Virus record (IMG/VR): IMGVR_UViG_3300042467_002659
Location: 1 to 37,872 of that record
Source: a virus
Strand: one strand, 5' to 3'
DNA: 37,872 nt
The translations under genes were made by a program, and so were the position numbers. Below the pieces are notes generated by a model. The model was given only the letters and a program-made list of their open reading frames with translations, was not told the DNA's origin and did not search any database. Shown in pieces: positions 1 through 25,278 of the stretch; positions within the stretch are counted from its first letter, which is position 1, and each line of letters starts with the position of its first letter.

Positions 1-271
1 GAGTGTCAAATAGTACTGCCCAGTCAATGTTAGACTTCTCTCGATCAGCTTTTCGATTGCCTTTATATGGAGCAAAGTAATCACGACGCCAGTACTTCTT
101 ATCATCGCAAGCAATAACAAGCTCACCATAGTCTGAAAACTTTACTTTAAGAGAACGAATGGTATTGATTACCATATGTCGAACAAGATCAGGTTGAATA
201 GCATCAGTGTGCTGTCCAACCTGCATCATAATGTTCGAAATCATTACTTGTGATAAGTCAAGGAGAATCAT
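1..271 (-). CDS. rnh: RNase H, T4 Rnh-like 5'-3' exonuclease (N-terminal part, cut by window edge)
   Basis: The first 90 codons of a gene that runs off the left edge. The product opens MILLDLSQVMIS, which matches the metal-binding start of T4 RNase H (LIDFSQ; the Asp is a metal ligand). It continues with the diagnostic YWRRDYFAPYKGNR stretch around residues 60-73. T4 Rnh is a FEN-1-type flap and 5'-3' exonuclease that removes RNA primers during lagging-strand synthesis. This fits a window holding the polymerase, helicase and primase. The ATG at 271 is the only in-frame start, and GAAA/TTAAC-rich sequence precedes it without a strong Shine-Dalgarno. A sigma70-like promoter lies just upstream at 302-330. 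The C-terminal half cannot be seen. Confidence 0.88.
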   Translation of the reverse strand, partial: MILLDLSQVMISNIMMQVGQHTDAIQPDLVRHMVINTIRSLKVKFSDYGELVIACDDKKYWRRDYFAPYKGNRKADREKSNIDWAVLFDT

Positions 272-301
272 AATTGTAGGTTAAAGAGTTAATGATATGT
301 T

Positions 302-330
302 ATGTTAACCTATACGCGTTCTAATGTCAA
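302..330 (-). promoter_or_regulatory. Putative sigma70-type promoter for rnh
   Basis: On the minus strand TTGACA (330-325) is followed by a 17-nt spacer and TAACAT (307-302). The -35 is a perfect match and the -10 matches at 4 of 6 positions. The -35 overlaps the TGA stop of the glycosyltransferase gene (329-327). The predicted transcript would start near 295 and give rnh a leader of about 25 nt. This is sequence-pattern evidence only. Confidence 0.4.
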
Positions 331-3645: not shown

Positions 3646-5180
3646 GTGTACTTCCATTTAATAAAGTTAAAGTATTGACTGTTATGGTCAATGATCTTTC
3701 TTGTCTCTTGCAAATACAATTTCTCCCAGTTCTGATATCTGGCTCTTGCTTCTTTCGGCGTAATGCCTAGTATACTCAAATAATGCATGTTTAGCCAAGG
3801 CTCACCGGCTTCAATATTGTGATTTTTCATTTTACGAGTTATACGATTACGTATAGTCACAGCCATATCCCAATTCATTGTTGGGCTTTCCCAATAGTTT
3901 ATCGGCTTGTCTTCAAAAAACACATATCCATACTTAGATGCCTCTTTCTCAAAAATACTCTTCTCTTGTTCTTTTTTTGAACGAGTGGGGTCATATAGAG
4001 TTAAAGCAGACCAATTCATGTGTATATGTCTTCGTTTTGAATACCAATCTAACGTTTTTTCTAGGTCTTTAATCCCTTCACCAGGTAACCCAATAATGTT
4101 GCAACAATTAATCATCACGTTCTCTTTGGCCATATCAAAGTAGAAGTGATCGAGAAATTCCTTGGCATACTTTGCACTAAACGCTTTACCAACAGCATTA
4201 GCTGCTTGGGGGTGAAAGGATTCGATTCCAAATGAGCACCCAACAAGTCCAGCATTCAGAAGACGTTGTGTGGTTTTTTGATACCTATGAGCAAGATCAA
4301 GACGAATGTAACCCATCAGATTAATTCTGAAGGGAAGTGACTCTAACATCTCGCAAAATTGATTAACGCGTTCGTCATTATCATTAAAAGTATCGTCAGC
4401 TAACCAGTAGTGGGTAGTTTGATACTTTTCATAATTATTACATATCTCTTCTTTAATATTTTCAAGAGGTCGTTCGAATGTACCTATCTTCTTACCAATG
4501 TTTGCAAATTGACAGAACCGACATCTGAAGATGCATCCTCTTGAGGTCTCTAATGGAACTGGCTCTCTAGGAACAATACAATCAGTGTCGTGCCATTTAA
4601 AATCACAAGTTGTTATCTGCCAGTCGTATGGTTGTTTTTGGATACCACTTCTTTTTATCTTATCAAGCAACTGTGGTAACGTATTCTCCGCTTCGCCCTG
4701 AAGCATATAATCAGCTTCAAAAATATCTTGGAATGCAACAGCTTGTGATCCACCAACTATAATCTTTGTTTTGTACTTTTCTCTAAAGTGATCAATGGTA
4801 TGAATAAGTTTATGTATTGCACTCTCATCCTGTAAATTACTGTCGTGAAATGATTGCGTCGAGAAGTCACCATGTGGATACCCCAGTAAGCTAGTTGAGA
4901 TACCAATGATTGTTTTCTCATTAACGAACCCTTCACAGAGAGACAAAATTTCCTGAGCGGTGAGCATTTGGAGCTTTGACAGCACTTGTGATGTGTACCC
5001 ATGTTTGCGTGCTATCCACGCAATCTTTGAAGGGCCCAGGACACGCATTCCCAAGTGGATGTGAAGTTCGTACAAATGAGCATTGATAGCTCTCACGTCT
5101 TCTTTAACTTTTTTATAAGAAGCGTGGTAATCCCCACCCATCGAGGAGTCGGCAGCTAGTATTAAAAAATCAACAGCCAT
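3642..5180 (-). CDS. B12-binding-type radical SAM enzyme (paralogue 1)
   Basis: A 512-residue protein with a Rossmann-like N-terminal domain. It includes LGPSKIAWIARKHGYTSQV (48-66), IIGISTS and IIVGGSQA, as in cobalamin-binding radical SAM proteins. A classic radical SAM core follows, with the 4Fe-4S motif CxxxCxxC at C216, C220 and C223 (RGCIFRCRFC). Further core blocks are HYWLADDTFND, GCSFGIESFHP and NIIGLPGEGIKDL. A typical DxHxxG cobalamin motif is not evident, so B12 use is an inference. It is adjacent to and clearly paralogous with the next gene. Family members methylate or rearrange unreactive carbons; the substrate here is unknown. The start overlaps the preceding stop as TAATG. Confidence 0.86.
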   Translation of the reverse strand: MAVDFLILAADSSMGGDYHASYKKVKEDVRAINAHLYELHIHLGMRVLGPSKIAWIARKHGYTSQVLSKLQMLTAQEILSLCEGFVNEKTIIGISTSLLGYPHGDFSTQSFHDSNLQDESAIHKLIHTIDHFREKYKTKIIVGGSQAVAFQDIFEADYMLQGEAENTLPQLLDKIKRSGIQKQPYDWQITTCDFKWHDTDCIVPREPVPLETSRGCIFRCRFCQFANIGKKIGTFERPLENIKEEICNNYEKYQTTHYWLADDTFNDNDERVNQFCEMLESLPFRINLMGYIRLDLAHRYQKTTQRLLNAGLVGCSFGIESFHPQAANAVGKAFSAKYAKEFLDHFYFDMAKENVMINCCNIIGLPGEGIKDLEKTLDWYSKRRHIHMNWSALTLYDPTRSKKEQEKSIFEKEASKYGYVFFEDKPINYWESPTMNWDMAVTIRNRITRKMKNHNIEAGEPWLNMHYLSILGITPKEARARYQNWEKLYLQETRKIIDHNSQYFNFIKWKYT

Positions 5181-14027: not shown

Positions 14028-15052
14028 ATTTTTTTCCATTGCGATAACCTCAATCTTGCTGTTAAATCTTTAAATGTATTGTTTTCTATAATATTGTGAA
14101 TATCTGACGACGATAACCCACCACAAATCATTTCGTTGATGTCTTTATGCGTGACGGTGTCTGGCCATATACACACATTATAACCTGCATTGATACACTT
14201 TTCAATAGCGCTAACAATATTTTTATTACGTGGTTCATTATCATAAACAACAACCGTATTACTAGGTGTGATTCCTAGCCGCTGAGACGCTCTATCCAAG
14301 TGAGAGCTACCCATGGCAATACAATTAGAAAGGAACATAGAATCAATCGGCCCTTCAACAACAAATACTTTCTTTCGTACATCAAGTCTCTCCAATCCAT
14401 ATACTTTTGGTTTCTCTTCATCAAGCATTATTGTTATGTATCTAAGCTCTACATCAAAGAATGCCCGTCCTTGATAGCCGAACAGATTTCCATTCTGATC
14501 CACAAAAGGAATAATTAAACGTGGCTCATCTTTATTTGAAAGATCGAATTTGTTAGGAATAATAGTATTTGTCCATGCTTTAAACTTAGGAGCATAGAAC
14601 AACTTCGAGTGCATGTGGGGAGGGATCTTCCTACCTACAACATAACGCTTTGCTGGATGTTCAACAGGCAACTGCGAGATCTTCTTTAATCCCGACAGCG
14701 CTGTAAATTTAATGAATTTCGGCGTAATAAACCTGGATATATCGGGCTCTGGCTCAACTATCCTTTCTGTACTTCCTTTTCGTTCTAGGAAGGTTTCACG
14801 CCGGTAGTCATTATAAGCATTTGGGTCTACTTGTTCCAAAAACTTTGAGAAAGGCATAGTAACATTACAATTATGGCACGTGTAGATAAATTTGCCATCA
14901 CGGCCTAAAATATATCCACGCGCCTTTGTTTTACTCTTGCGTGAGTCACCACATATTGGACATCTCATATTCCACAGTGTCTCGTGCTTCCGTGTAAACA
15001 TTGAGAGCCTTGGTGCTAGCGCACCAATATATTTCACATCAATCCATTGCAT
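14024..15052 (-). CDS. DNA primase, T4 gp61-like
   Basis: A 342-residue DnaG-type primase. The N-terminal zinc ribbon is CPICGDS ... YTCHNC, with the KARGYILGRDGKF loop between. The Toprim catalytic Glu is in VFVVEGPIDSMFL and the acidic pair in VVVYDNEPR. It synthesises RNA primers with the gp41-type helicase encoded at 30581-31951. The ATG at 15052 has AGGAGG only 4 nt upstream, and that Shine-Dalgarno is wholly inside a strong hairpin (15054-15090). A sigma70-like promoter in the leader could produce a transcript lacking half of the hairpin. Confidence 0.9.
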   Translation of the reverse strand: MQWIDVKYIGALAPRLSMFTRKHETLWNMRCPICGDSRKSKTKARGYILGRDGKFIYTCHNCNVTMPFSKFLEQVDPNAYNDYRRETFLERKGSTERIVEPEPDISRFITPKFIKFTALSGLKKISQLPVEHPAKRYVVGRKIPPHMHSKLFYAPKFKAWTNTIIPNKFDLSNKDEPRLIIPFVDQNGNLFGYQGRAFFDVELRYITIMLDEEKPKVYGLERLDVRKKVFVVEGPIDSMFLSNCIAMGSSHLDRASQRLGITPSNTVVVYDNEPRNKNIVSAIEKCINAGYNVCIWPDTVTHKDINEMICGGLSSSDIHNIIENNTFKDLTARLRLSQWKKI

Positions 15053-15053
15053 A

Positions 15054-15090
15054 AAACCTCCTAAGTCAGCAAATCGACTGTAGGAGGTTT
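15054..15090 (-). promoter_or_regulatory. Hairpin that sequesters the primase Shine-Dalgarno
   Basis: Arms 15054-15063 and 15081-15090 are perfectly complementary over 10 bp. After a one-base bulge (15080), four more pairs form (15064-15067 with 15076-15079), closing an 8-nt loop. The whole AGGAGG of the primase gene (15062-15057) is base-paired. The arrangement resembles T4 genes such as e and soc, where hairpins silence the gene on read-through transcripts. Confidence 0.7.
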
Positions 15091-15105
15091 ATTCTAAGAA
15101 GTCAA
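15077..15105 (-). promoter_or_regulatory. Sigma70-like promoter embedded in the primase leader
   Basis: TTGACT (15105-15100), a 17-nt spacer and TACAGT (15082-15077). Transcription would start near 15070, in the loop of the hairpin. The resulting mRNA would lack the 5' arm and expose the Shine-Dalgarno. The -10 matches consensus at 4 of 6 positions. Confidence 0.5.
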
Positions 15106-15108
15106 CGG

Positions 15109-15354
15109 TTATGTTTTGAGGAAATGAGATACCAAATATCCGAGGACAATAGCTCCACCAACGACCATCCATCTCCATCTTTCAATGGCTGTAAGCCGTT
15201 TATCGATATCGTCGATCTTGTCCATCATATTTTTATGCTGTTCTTTTGAATCCATTCTAAACTCTTTTATCTCAGAACTAATATTTTTAATTTCATTTTC
15301 CAAAACAGCGATCCTTGAGGTGGTATCAAATAGTTCCATGGCCGCAAGATCCAT
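15109..15354 (-). CDS. Coiled-coil membrane protein, XhlA/holin-accessory-like
   Basis: An 81-residue protein. A long heptad-rich helix (about 12-60, VLENEIKNISSEIKEF...DKIDDIDKRLTAIERWRW) is followed by one C-terminal transmembrane segment (MVVGGAIVLGYLVSHFL). This matches the plan of XhlA-type phage lysis accessory proteins. The ATG overlaps the preceding stop as TAATG. It closes the lysis and membrane gene group, before the primase leader. Function inferred from topology and position. Confidence 0.65.
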   Translation of the reverse strand: MDLAAMELFDTTSRIAVLENEIKNISSEIKEFRMDSKEQHKNMMDKIDDIDKRLTAIERWRWMVVGGAIVLGYLVSHFLKT

Positions 15355-16507: not shown

Positions 16508-17653
16508 TTATACTGCGGTAAACGCGGTGTCTAATGGTATCAATGTTATTGCTGTTGATATCTTACTGCAAGTTAGATATCGGAATATTGGATTAGCATA
16601 TAATACCACATTTCCTGCTACACCGTTGATAGCACGATTGGTTGCCTGTGCATTTGGTACATTAAATGTAACCACGCCAAATTGCATACTGGCAGTTCCA
16701 CTCATTGTAACTCCATAAGTGTTAGCAGCAGCGCCAGTATTATTAAGGATACAAGTAGCCATACCAAATTGTGCTGTTCCACTTAATGTTATAACAGCGC
16801 CCGTACCAGCATCAATGGAACTATTCAACATAGTTCCAGTTGAATCGTTTGCTAGGTTCAATACTTGTCCAATTCCATTAGTTTCAAGATTGTCAATTTG
16901 ACAATATCCACGCTGAATATCAATAAGATGAGTTGAACCATTTGCTCTAGACATAGAGCAATTAAGCAATGATACACGTGTATCATTGCCAGTATTATTT
17001 GCATATACACAAGACTTACTACTGTTTCCTTGATACACATAAGCATCTTCCAGATAAATTCTACAAGCATTGGAACCATCTATTTCAATGCCGTGATAAG
17101 CACCTGTTGGAAGAACAGCAACGTGAAACAAACCAAAGTGATTAACATTTACAGCAGTTGCTCCAGAAACAGATGGTGTAATAATAACGTGTCCGTGAAT
17201 CCATATCGGTATGTGTCCTGCGTCTGGTGTATCACCAACAATAAAAATATGACCACGAGTTAATATAACATCTTCTGTAGTTGAACTTTTTAGAATAATA
17301 AACTGTGGGTTATCAACAACTGTTCCCGATACAACAATCGTCAAACTACCATCAGCAATTCTTGCTTCAATATATGCCAAAGCAGCAGTGATTGATAAGA
17401 AAGGATTGTTTTCACTTCCAGTTGAAGTACCAGCTACAATATCTGTTCTACTTGGATCAACATACCATTGATTATCTGCTACGTTAACACTAACAGGTTC
17501 CGTGATGGTTATACCACCTGAGGTTGTACCGTTAGAAAGTTTGATAGATCCAATTTCTGGATCATAGAATAATTCACCAGCTCTACCGATAAAAGAGGCG
17601 GAAGGTCTGCCACCCATTTTTTGAGCAAATAATTTGAATGTTTTATTTGACAT
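16508..17653 (-). CDS. Beta-helix tail-fibre or receptor-binding protein
   Basis: A 381-residue protein. The N terminus MSNKTFKLFAQKMGGRPSA...GRAGELFYDPEIGSIKLSNGTTSGG is the attachment-type segment common in marine phage fibres. Residues about 65-350 look like a right-handed parallel beta helix: repeated short strands rich in Asn, Thr, Gly and Val (for example GATAVNVNHFGLFHV, GIEIDGSNACRIYLEDAYVY, CSMSRANGSTHLIDI). A typical pectate-lyase catalytic triad cannot be assigned. The start overlaps the lysin stop as TAATG. It appears to be an insertion between lysin and the downstream membrane gene, flanked by the two lysin tails. Confidence 0.75.
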   Translation of the reverse strand: MSNKTFKLFAQKMGGRPSASFIGRAGELFYDPEIGSIKLSNGTTSGGITITEPVSVNVADNQWYVDPSRTDIVAGTSTGSENNPFLSITAALAYIEARIADGSLTIVVSGTVVDNPQFIILKSSTTEDVILTRGHIFIVGDTPDAGHIPIWIHGHVIITPSVSGATAVNVNHFGLFHVAVLPTGAYHGIEIDGSNACRIYLEDAYVYQGNSSKSCVYANNTGNDTRVSLLNCSMSRANGSTHLIDIQRGYCQIDNLETNGIGQVLNLANDSTGTMLNSSIDAGTGAVITLSGTAQFGMATCILNNTGAAANTYGVTMSGTASMQFGVVTFNVPNAQATNRAINGVAGNVVLYANPIFRYLTCSKISTAITLIPLDTAFTAV

Positions 17654-18279
17654 TAATGTGTTCCTAATACGTGTAAAGCATGTTCATAATGTTTGATTCG
17701 ATCATCTAATCCTATCGTTCCACCATTGATTCTTTTTGTTAGCGTCAGAATATCACCCTTATCTGCCCATTGATTGAGGTTGTTGGTTTCCCAAAACCAA
17801 CAAGCCGATTGTGCTGCGCCTTCGAACGTATTCAGATACTCTGTAGCTTCTTCAACTGTTATATCCAGGCTACCAGCAAAGAACGTGTAATTGTTTCGGC
17901 CTGTCAATTGAATCAAACCACGTCCACAGAAACGATACCCATCGCCTGATGCTTCATCCCCATTACCCATACGACTAGCATAGATACGGTTTGCAATTGC
18001 CTCTTGCTTGTTAGGTTTATTAGCGTATTCTTGAGCGATCGCATCGTCAGGAAAGTACTTTGGAAACAGTTTACGTAGTGTTTGCCAACGATAATTCAAA
18101 TTCTCTTTGAGGGCAGTGAACCCAGCTGACTCGTGCGAGCATTGAGCAATAAATGCAGCGATTCTTTGTGATGTGTTGATATCATAATCAGGTAGTAACT
18201 TTGTTAATGCAGCGTGCCAGTAATCAATATAAGGATTCTTTGGTAACAGCTGTTTGAGTTGTTCTTTTGTTAGTTCCAT
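17653..18279 (-). CDS. Endolysin, GH19 chitinase-class muramidase
   Basis: A 208-residue glycoside hydrolase family 19 domain without a signal peptide. The catalytic Glu is in FIAQCSHESAGF (E50), with a second acidic residue near LKENLNYRW. The conserved core RFCGRGLIQLTGRNNY and the C-terminal CWFWETNNLN...LTKRINGG complete the family pattern. Phage GH19 enzymes cleave peptidoglycan glycan strands at lysis. The spanin-like pair lies just upstream. Its last 16 codons are duplicated 1.2 kb downstream. Confidence 0.92.
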   Translation of the reverse strand: MELTKEQLKQLLPKNPYIDYWHAALTKLLPDYDINTSQRIAAFIAQCSHESAGFTALKENLNYRWQTLRKLFPKYFPDDAIAQEYANKPNKQEAIANRIYASRMGNGDEASGDGYRFCGRGLIQLTGRNNYTFFAGSLDITVEEATEYLNTFEGAAQSACWFWETNNLNQWADKGDILTLTKRINGGTIGLDDRIKHYEHALHVLGTH

Positions 18280-18285
18280 GGTAAC

Positions 18286-18561
18286 CTACTTTTTATCGTG
18301 AATAACGTCGTGAATTTGTTTTTGCTCTTTATACCACTTAATGATTAGGTCATGCTTTGTAGCACACTCATGGTACATCATATAGTTATGTGTAACAGTT
18401 TTTAAGAGTTCCGATAACTTTTCCTCTTTCTCATTCAACAACTTTAATTCGACACATCTCTCTATAAGCAGTGCAGGCATATCAGGAAGGGCATGTTTAA
18501 CGGGTGCTGATACCATACAACCTGTTAATAATAGAGGACTCAACCAGAGCATGACCTTCAT
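18286..18561 (-). CDS. Small lipoprotein, probable outer-membrane spanin subunit (Rz1-like)
   Basis: A 91-residue protein with a lipobox signal MKVMLWLSPLLLTGC (Cys 15). A proline-containing linker (APVKHALPDMPALL) and a helical C-terminal part (LLNEKEEKLSELLKTV...) follow. The start overlaps the upstream membrane coiled-coil gene as ATGA, with GAGGGG before it. The order inner-membrane coiled-coil protein, lipoprotein, endolysin supports an i-spanin/o-spanin assignment. It is longer than classical Rz1, so this is inference from architecture. Confidence 0.62.
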   Translation of the reverse strand: MKVMLWLSPLLLTGCMVSAPVKHALPDMPALLIERCVELKLLNEKEEKLSELLKTVTHNYMMYHECATKHDLIIKWYKEQKQIHDVIHDKK

Positions 18562-19007
18562 TTAGACCCCTCTTTCAGCTTAAAAGATGCGGCATCATTG
18601 TGTGCTTTGGATACTTCTGGGGGTAGCTTACATACGTTGTCATATTTAACGATTTCTCTGTCTACATATTGAACAACGGTCGCTCCCTTTTCTTTTATAA
18701 CTTTTGTCCTATCAACATATTTTGTTACTGTCTCGACGGTAACCTGTGCAGATTTTGCTTGAGCTTCAGCTACTTCCTTCTCGAGCTCGGCTATACGTGC
18801 CTTCCAGGCGTTTTCATTCCACACAGCTCCAATCATGAAAGTGCCAATCACAATAAGTGCGACAGCAGCTAGCTGTATAGGAGTTCTATACACATATAAA
18901 GGAGGAAACGGTATGAATTTTAGTAGGTATGTGACTGCAAGACCGACAATACCAACAAACAATACACCGTAAAAGAACCAATCAGGTAGGAACTTTACTA
19001 ACCACAT
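18558..19007 (-). CDS. Membrane coiled-coil protein, probable inner-membrane spanin (Rz-like)
   Basis: A 149-residue protein. Hydrophobic segments lie at about 10-33 and 45-65, then a coiled coil (WKARIAELEKEVAEAQAKSAQVTVETVTKYVDR). A periplasmic end VVQYVDREIVKYDNVCKLPPEVSKAHNDAAS follows. The closing C-x-LPP...HNDAA pattern is shared with many phage Rz-like proteins. Classical Rz has one N-terminal anchor; two or more segments here are unusual. It is followed by a lipoprotein gene in an ATGA overlap. It overlaps the upstream small protein's tail by 26 nt. Confidence 0.65.
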   Translation of the reverse strand: MWLVKFLPDWFFYGVLFVGIVGLAVTYLLKFIPFPPLYVYRTPIQLAAVALIVIGTFMIGAVWNENAWKARIAELEKEVAEAQAKSAQVTVETVTKYVDRTKVIKEKGATVVQYVDREIVKYDNVCKLPPEVSKAHNDAASFKLKEGSK

Positions 19008-20141: not shown

Positions 20142-21014
20142 TTATGCTTCAGAATCAGGGAGCTGTCTATCGTCAGAGCCATCGCCAGAAATGTTACGCG
20201 TTGCAACAAGACATTCATATGTAACACGACCAGCACGGCCACCTGTACCAACTGTACGAATATTCCAGCCAGCTGTAATACCTTTGTTCTTACCGCCAGA
20301 TAACGAAGCAACGGCAACGGCTGTTTGACCTGTCAGACTATGGCCTGCCTGTGCACCTGTACCGACAGACGCTAAGTTAATAAACACACCGCCGTTATAG
20401 TCTTCTTGGTCAGCAGATAGCTGAATGGCCGTGGAATTGGCAACAGTCACAAAATACGTGGTGTTGTTTGCAAGTCCACCAATCGCTGTGTTACTAGTAC
20501 CAACAAGATATGTAACTGTATCGCCGTTTGCAAGCAATGCAACGTTTGCTGTACCGAGAAGGATAAAGCCCTTGACCGTGCTATTACCGACAACAACGCC
20601 TGTTGAATTGCCCGAGAAAGTAAGCGCTGCAGGTGCTGCAACAGTTACGGTTGGTGTCTGTGTGTAGCCATAACCAACTTCAGTAATGTTAATGGTAGCA
20701 ATACGGCCTGTTGCGTTTGCTTGAGCGTTGGCTGTTGCGCTAACACCAGCACTCGATGTAATGGTAACAACTGCATTAGCCGTATAACCCGAACCTGCTG
20801 ACGTAATAACAATCTCTGCAACACCACTACCTGTTGCTGCAGTTTCTGCTGTGTCAGAAGCGAACATACCAACAGTCACACCATTGAAGTATGCGTTTGG
20901 TGTTGTATTTCCATACAAAAGATTAGCTTGTGCACGCGTAGGAGCGTTACCAACTTGCGATGGTGCCCAAATTACGCTGTTAGAAGCAGTATCGTTTAAT
21001 CCCCATAATGGCAT
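20142..21014 (-). CDS. Major MPLWG-type virion structural protein
   Basis: A 290-residue protein beginning MPLWGLNDTASNSVIWAP. That start is characteristic of an abundant virion protein family of T4-like cyanophages and other marine myoviruses. The body is Gly/Ala/Thr/Val-rich with repeated beta motifs: two copies of a GSGYT / GYGYT block (SAGSGYTANAVVTITSSAG and EVGYGYTQTPTVTVAAPAA), then domains ending GRAGRVTYECLVATRNI. A late-promoter-like CATAAATA lies 27 nt upstream and AAGGAG precedes the ATG, consistent with strong late expression. The exact place in the virion is unknown to me. Confidence 0.75.
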   Translation of the reverse strand: MPLWGLNDTASNSVIWAPSQVGNAPTRAQANLLYGNTTPNAYFNGVTVGMFASDTAETAATGSGVAEIVITSAGSGYTANAVVTITSSAGVSATANAQANATGRIATINITEVGYGYTQTPTVTVAAPAALTFSGNSTGVVVGNSTVKGFILLGTANVALLANGDTVTYLVGTSNTAIGGLANNTTYFVTVANSTAIQLSADQEDYNGGVFINLASVGTGAQAGHSLTGQTAVAVASLSGGKNKGITAGWNIRTVGTGGRAGRVTYECLVATRNISGDGSDDRQLPDSEA

Positions 21015-25270: not shown

Positions 25271-25278
25271 TATTTATA
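25271..25278 (-). promoter_or_regulatory. T4-type late promoter TATAAATA
   Basis: A perfect TATAAATA on the minus strand, 39 nt upstream of the 448-residue late protein and in a gap between genes. T4 late transcription needs only this -10-type element with gp55, gp33 and gp45. It probably drives the head, fibre and lysis genes downstream. Confidence 0.72.

Follow-up and report, generated by a model that had tools for sequence, protein, structure and literature searches.

A host-type promoter nested in a hairpin over the ribosome site of a T4-like phage primase gene: a possible insulator against read-through RNA

In the window, a stretch of viral DNA of 37,872 nucleotides (IMG/VR record IMGVR_UViG_3300042467_002659) analyzed here at its full length, a gene for a gp61-type DNA primase lies behind virion and lysis genes, and all genes around its leader are located on the minus strand (Table 1). 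The leader consists of the 56 bases between the upstream stop codon (15109) and the primase start, and in these a promoter, a hairpin and a ribosome site overlap. The question raised by this locus is whether such a leader can distinguish RNA that reads through from the upstream genes from RNA that is started locally.

The primase gene showed full-length homology to T4-like phage primases, with which it is classed, and was found at the head of a downstream nucleotide gene set (thymidylate synthase, nrdA, and nrdB). RNA from the upstream genes is probably late, judging from their predicted lysis and virion functions; the literature searched contained no expression timing for a phage of this group. 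A small coiled-coil gene (XhlA/DUF7201-like, in many cases with a membrane segment at the C-terminus) was present directly upstream of the primase in most relatives examined, which belong to diverse T4-like phages.

Table 1. Features of the primase leader, its surroundings and the second leader in the window
Feature	Position	Strand	Basis or remark
Hairpin, 15 pairs including one closing G-U, one bulged C	15054-15090	-	Fold; compensatory changes in the clade
Hairpin 5′ arm, AAACCUCCUA, bulged C at 15080, AGUCG	15090-15075	-	
Hairpin loop	15074-15069	-	
Hairpin 3′ arm, UGACU UAGGAGGUUU, contains the whole AGGAGG	15068-15054	-	
Shine-Dalgarno AGGAGG of the primase gene	15062-15057	-	6/6 bases paired in predicted fold of read-through RNA
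Sigma70-like promoter, TTGACT-17-TACAGT	15105-15077	-	9/12 match
Promoter elements	TTGACT 15105-15100; 17-nt spacer; TACAGT 15082-15077	-	
Predicted transcription start, in or at the hairpin loop	about 15070 (15068-15072)	-	Inferred from -10 position
U run at the stem foot (GGUUUU-AUG)	15053-15056	-	Sequence; terminator-like in clade members
gp61-type DNA primase, 342 aa	14024-15052	-	PHROG 451/47; 46% identity to Sinorhizobium phage phiM12 primase
XhlA/DUF7201-like coiled-coil and membrane protein (holin-like), gene upstream of primase	15109-15354	-	Pfam PF23831 above cutoff, XhlA weak; PHROG holin/hemolysin
GH19 endolysin	17653-18279	-	Upstream of primase
Rz-like gene	18558-19007	-	Upstream of primase
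Head closure/tail-like gene	20142-21014	-	Upstream of primase
Second promoter-in-hairpin leader, TTGACA-17-TAACAT (330-302), UAGGUUAA pairs with UUAACCUA	271-330	-	p 0.033; weak alone, z -1.0
RNase H/5′-3′ exonuclease-like gene, 5′ part, cut by window end	5-271	-	PHROG 107; 82% identity over 90 aa to L358:2429

Structure of the primase leader in the window

The leader begins with TTGACT, 3 nt past the upstream stop codon, followed by the spacer, TACAGT, the loop, which contains the predicted start, and AGGAGG-UUUU-AUG. The last eight spacer bases and the entire -10 element form the 5′ arm of the hairpin. A first-pass annotation of this DNA had described a 14-bp hairpin with one bulge that pairs the whole AGGAGG; the bulge and the full pairing were confirmed, and the length was corrected to 15 pairs, the closing G-U included. 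Its sigma70-like promoter overlapping the 5′ arm, with a predicted start in the loop, was borne out by the positions of the elements.

Folding of 15044-15090 gave -18.4 kcal/mol (z -4.8), which was reached by none of 200 shuffles, and the 101-nt primase leader gave z -3.5; the RNA predicted to start at 15070 was nearly without structure (-0.9 kcal/mol). Opening the ribosome site would take 13.5 kcal/mol on read-through RNA, compared to 1.5 on local RNA and 5.0 ± 2.2 when the spacer was shuffled. When 47 minus-strand gene starts were folded from -70 to +10, only the primase leader fell below z -2; at z -4.3 it was the one strong outlier in structure, and the next leader had z -1.97.

The promoter match alone was not significant, with five TTGACW-16..18-TANNNT sites in the window compared to 4.7 expected. 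Thus, the window promoter (9/12) is by itself at chance level, and its support comes from relatives. A T4 late promoter was rejected as the inner promoter, as TATAAATA was absent from the leader (one in the whole window, at 25271, compared to 2.3 expected); the inner promoter is TTGACT-17-TACAGT. A known RNA family was also rejected, since no Rfam match up to E 1 was found across 14900-15300.

Relatives of the leader and a second replication gene

The clade primases L002-L006 showed 62-67% identity to the window primase. The letters of the clade leaders are very different but the fold is alike, with a common layout of TTGACT, a spacer with a CC-rich end, the -10 element, a loop, complementary GG-rich letters, a U run and ATG; the promoters are TTGACT-17-TATAAT or similar. 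In the six leaders whose arms could be aligned (the window, L222, L227, L229, L005, and L006), all 54 stem pairs were standard, and two-sided changes were found in six of nine stem columns. The arms were paired by hand and by eye, which favors pairing, and the fair comparison is therefore the exchange of 3′ arms between the six phages, which gave a mean of 43.4 pairs (maximum 47) compared to 54 in the native combinations. The compensatory stem changes that the first-pass annotation had proposed to look for are thus present, and the computation shows covariation at the RNA level. A broken stem with the Shine-Dalgarno kept, which it had named as speaking against its proposal, was not found within the clade. 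Four leaders of the same clade (L002, L003, L004, and L228) have other hairpins in the same place, without the U run. The fact that many relatives hold the layout with completely different letters suggests, as far as sequence comparison goes, that the layout is selected.

Scans for primase relatives yielded 319 leaders, reduced to 174 by dereplication (75%). Of 80 related loci, 45 had a promoter matching at least 10 of 12 positions upstream of the primase, compared to 29 of 845 other genes, and a promoter before the primase is therefore a conserved property of the gene. Among 113 dereplicated promoter-bearing primase leaders, the mean opening energy of the ribosome region, computed for positions -16 to -4, was 7.4 kcal/mol in read-through RNA and 2.2 in RNA that begins at the predicted start; the controls gave 5.3 with a shuffled spacer and 4.3 with the upstream part taken from another locus (Wilcoxon p 1e-9), and 40 of the 113 were in the top 5% of swaps. 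The complementarity score between spacer and leader was 15.6 compared to 12.1 ± 0.3 in swapped pairs, with 28 strong cases compared to 2.0 expected; these statistics overstate independence because the leaders share ancestry, and the 75% dereplication and the swaps reduce the effect of kinship rather than remove it.

Strong pairing is found in part of the wider set only: about 70% of the promoter-bearing leaders were without a strong hairpin, the phiM12 primase leader showed weaker structure only, and the Kyanoviridae isolates S-RSM4, S-CAM9, S-8S53, and S-RIM8 had no such leader, as their primase gene overlaps or abuts the upstream gene. A column count in one automatic alignment of a marine group, in which the arms were partly misaligned, showed no excess covariation. 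Six leaders of a marine group (L297, L300, L302, L304, L310, and L313) have a -10 element that ends 5-7 bases before the primase ATG, within a short palindrome immediately preceding the start codon; their primase mRNA would consequently be leaderless. In L378, L379, and L381 (S-8S53, S-CAM9, and S-PRM1), the annotated primase starts 45-82 codons downstream of the start of homology, and these starts are therefore probably misplaced.

The arrangement is not confined to the primase. The leader of an RNase H-like gene was the top match in a scan of long relatives, through which this gene was noticed; strong versions of its hairpin were present in L387, L403, and L395, and the copy in the window is weaker with the same layout. 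Complementarity was 15.7 compared to 12.0 swapped in primase leaders (n = 95 promoter-bearing) and 15.9 compared to 11.8 swapped in RNase H-like leaders (n = 17 promoter-bearing), and 57 other promoter-gene pairs gave barely any signal (13.0 compared to 12.0 swapped). The signal is thus concentrated on two replication genes.

A third gene with the layout was observed in Synechococcus phage MA10 (L368:14518; 34318 of PP110483), where TTAACT-17-TATAAT lies inside a terminator-like hairpin (GAGGTCC...GGACCTTTTTTATT) preceding a small PHROG 431 gene beside Hsp20 and DNA polymerase genes.

A proposed insulator and its rivals

We consider it probable that the primase leader is a promoter-embedded insulator which silences read-through RNA and spares local RNA, so that the primase operon owes its expression to the local promoter rather than to late transcripts. 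A transcript coming in from the lysis and virion genes upstream would have both arms, fold the hairpin and hide the ribosome site. RNA from the local host-type promoter would start in the loop and lack the 5′ arm; the hairpin could then not form, and this RNA would be translated. In the window's clade, read-through RNA may also terminate at the U run, as a second, compatible barrier. The first-pass annotation had proposed this switch, with read-through RNA locked and local RNA open. The proposal is supported by the geometry and by comparison with relatives, namely the compensatory changes in the clade, a match between spacer and ribosome site above swaps in more than 100 divergent leaders, and a bias toward G-U; the terminator-like U run and the RNase H-like gene are additions to it.

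The hairpin might instead serve mainly to end transcription of the upstream lysis operon, as an intrinsic terminator in which the promoter of the next operon is nested, the pairing of the Shine-Dalgarno being a by-product of packing into 56 bases; RNA from the local promoter would escape termination because it lacks the 5′ arm. This agrees with the U run after the stem in the window (four U), L222, L227, L229, L005, L006, and Makaravirus phages S-H34, MA10, and MA01, and with the terminator patterns called in L229 and L005. The three Makaravirus phages are isolates from Synechococcus, and their primase is preceded by a long terminator-like hairpin with UUUUU-AUG at its end. In the window, the four U are followed by AUG and a terminator was not called on the minus strand. 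However, at least five T within the eight bases after the stem were found in only 5 of 41 strong hairpins, all groups included, whereas pairing of the ribosome region is general, and L002, L003, L004, and L228 keep the hairpin without a U run. Termination alone thus fails for the general pattern, and as the main role of the hairpin we regard it as unlikely. A DNA operator bound by a repressor protein would likewise account for an inverted repeat around the -10 element and the start, since operators are often found there. The imperfect stem positions argue against a dyad of this kind: G-U was found 87 times and A-C 44 times, compared to 54 and 44 in swapped controls, and the excess was present both in hairpins covering the ribosome site and in those not covering it. 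A DNA palindrome would treat both mismatches alike, so the preference points to RNA of the coding strand. Moreover, the sequence is not conserved even among close relatives, and an operator is considered improbable.

That the hairpin arose by chance, or as a by-product of A+T-rich leaders and the -10 element, would fit the chance-level promoter match in the window and the many relatives without a strong hairpin, but swapped and shuffled controls, which keep composition and the -10 element, gave values far below the native ones, and the clade stems carry compensatory changes. Chance is rejected on these grounds and given very little probability. It is equally doubtful that the hairpin has another role in RNA, as a processing site or a stabilizer of read-through RNA. 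This would suit cases such as DLP_6 and a marine group, in which 13-28 bases lie between the end of the 3′ arm and the start codon; however, this distance is most often about 6 bases, and the Shine-Dalgarno is covered by the 3′ arm. In 10 of 34 strong cases it ends upstream of the ribosome site, and since it stops short in about a third, sequestration does not account for all strong cases.

In Stenotrophomonas phage DLP_6 (L336, about 3930-4000), the hairpin surrounds the -10 element and stops about 28 bases short of the start codon, and similar hairpins were observed in marine leaders L309-L328; they are poorly explained by sequestration of the ribosome site, yet the G-U bias is present in them. 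Phage promoters far upstream have been predicted in DLP_6 for one 32-gene cluster including tail fibre and primase (PMC5349666), in agreement with read-through RNA reaching the primase.

The insulator reading could also be general. In many T4-like phages, replication genes (primase and RNase H-like) may have host-type promoters whose spacers co-evolve with the ribosome site of the driven gene. The result would be a general cis-acting insulator against translation of read-through RNA, and in some lineages against its transcription too, and the 17-bp spacer would carry a second, RNA-level code; we give this extension about even chances. If the insulator reading is true, phages need no protein regulator to prevent expression of replication genes from late transcripts, one 56-base element nests a promoter, an RNA lock (and perhaps a terminator) and a ribosome site, and promoter spacers can be under selection at the RNA level. 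This would be a compact design for insulated expression, and a mechanism reviewed for late T4 genes would extend to host-type promoters and replication genes.

Comparison with known systems

The leaders of T4 genes e (lysozyme), soc, and 49 contain a hairpin that sequesters the ribosome site on read-through RNA, and for gene e an inner promoter has been described which lies within the region of the hairpin and whose transcripts lack the 5′ arm (PMC3014915). The endonuclease leaders of I-TevI, I-TevII, I-TevIII, segB, and Aeh1 mobE follow the same logic, and every T4 gene or endonuclease for which such control is known is a late gene (PMC2988022). A literature search on phages for promoters inside terminators, or for hairpins at early promoters, yielded T4 reviews only.

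As in gene e, computed folds place the ribosome site of the window leader in a stable hairpin on the longer RNA, and the promoter is placed so that RNA from its predicted start would lack the 5′ arm, as judged from position only. In gene e, transcription inside the hairpin starts from a T4 late promoter and the RNA that is silenced is early read-through, whereas the window has a sigma70-like promoter, a replication gene and read-through from lysis and virion genes; the combination of late promoter and late gene is not found in the window primase leader. The stem in the window's clade is also terminator-like, unlike that of gene e. Transposase leaders of IS10 and IS50 are a further parallel: RNA that enters from external promoters folds and is translated poorly, and their own promoter starts inside the repeat. 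These are mobile elements, in which the arrangement protects against insertion beside a promoter and is not a step of an infection programme. The I-Tev, segB, and mobE leaders share the logic of hairpin and inner promoter with the window, but the genes in the window (primase and RNase H-like) are replication genes. The logic is thus that of T4 gene e and I-Tev, and the host-type inner promoter and the replication genes set the window apart from them.
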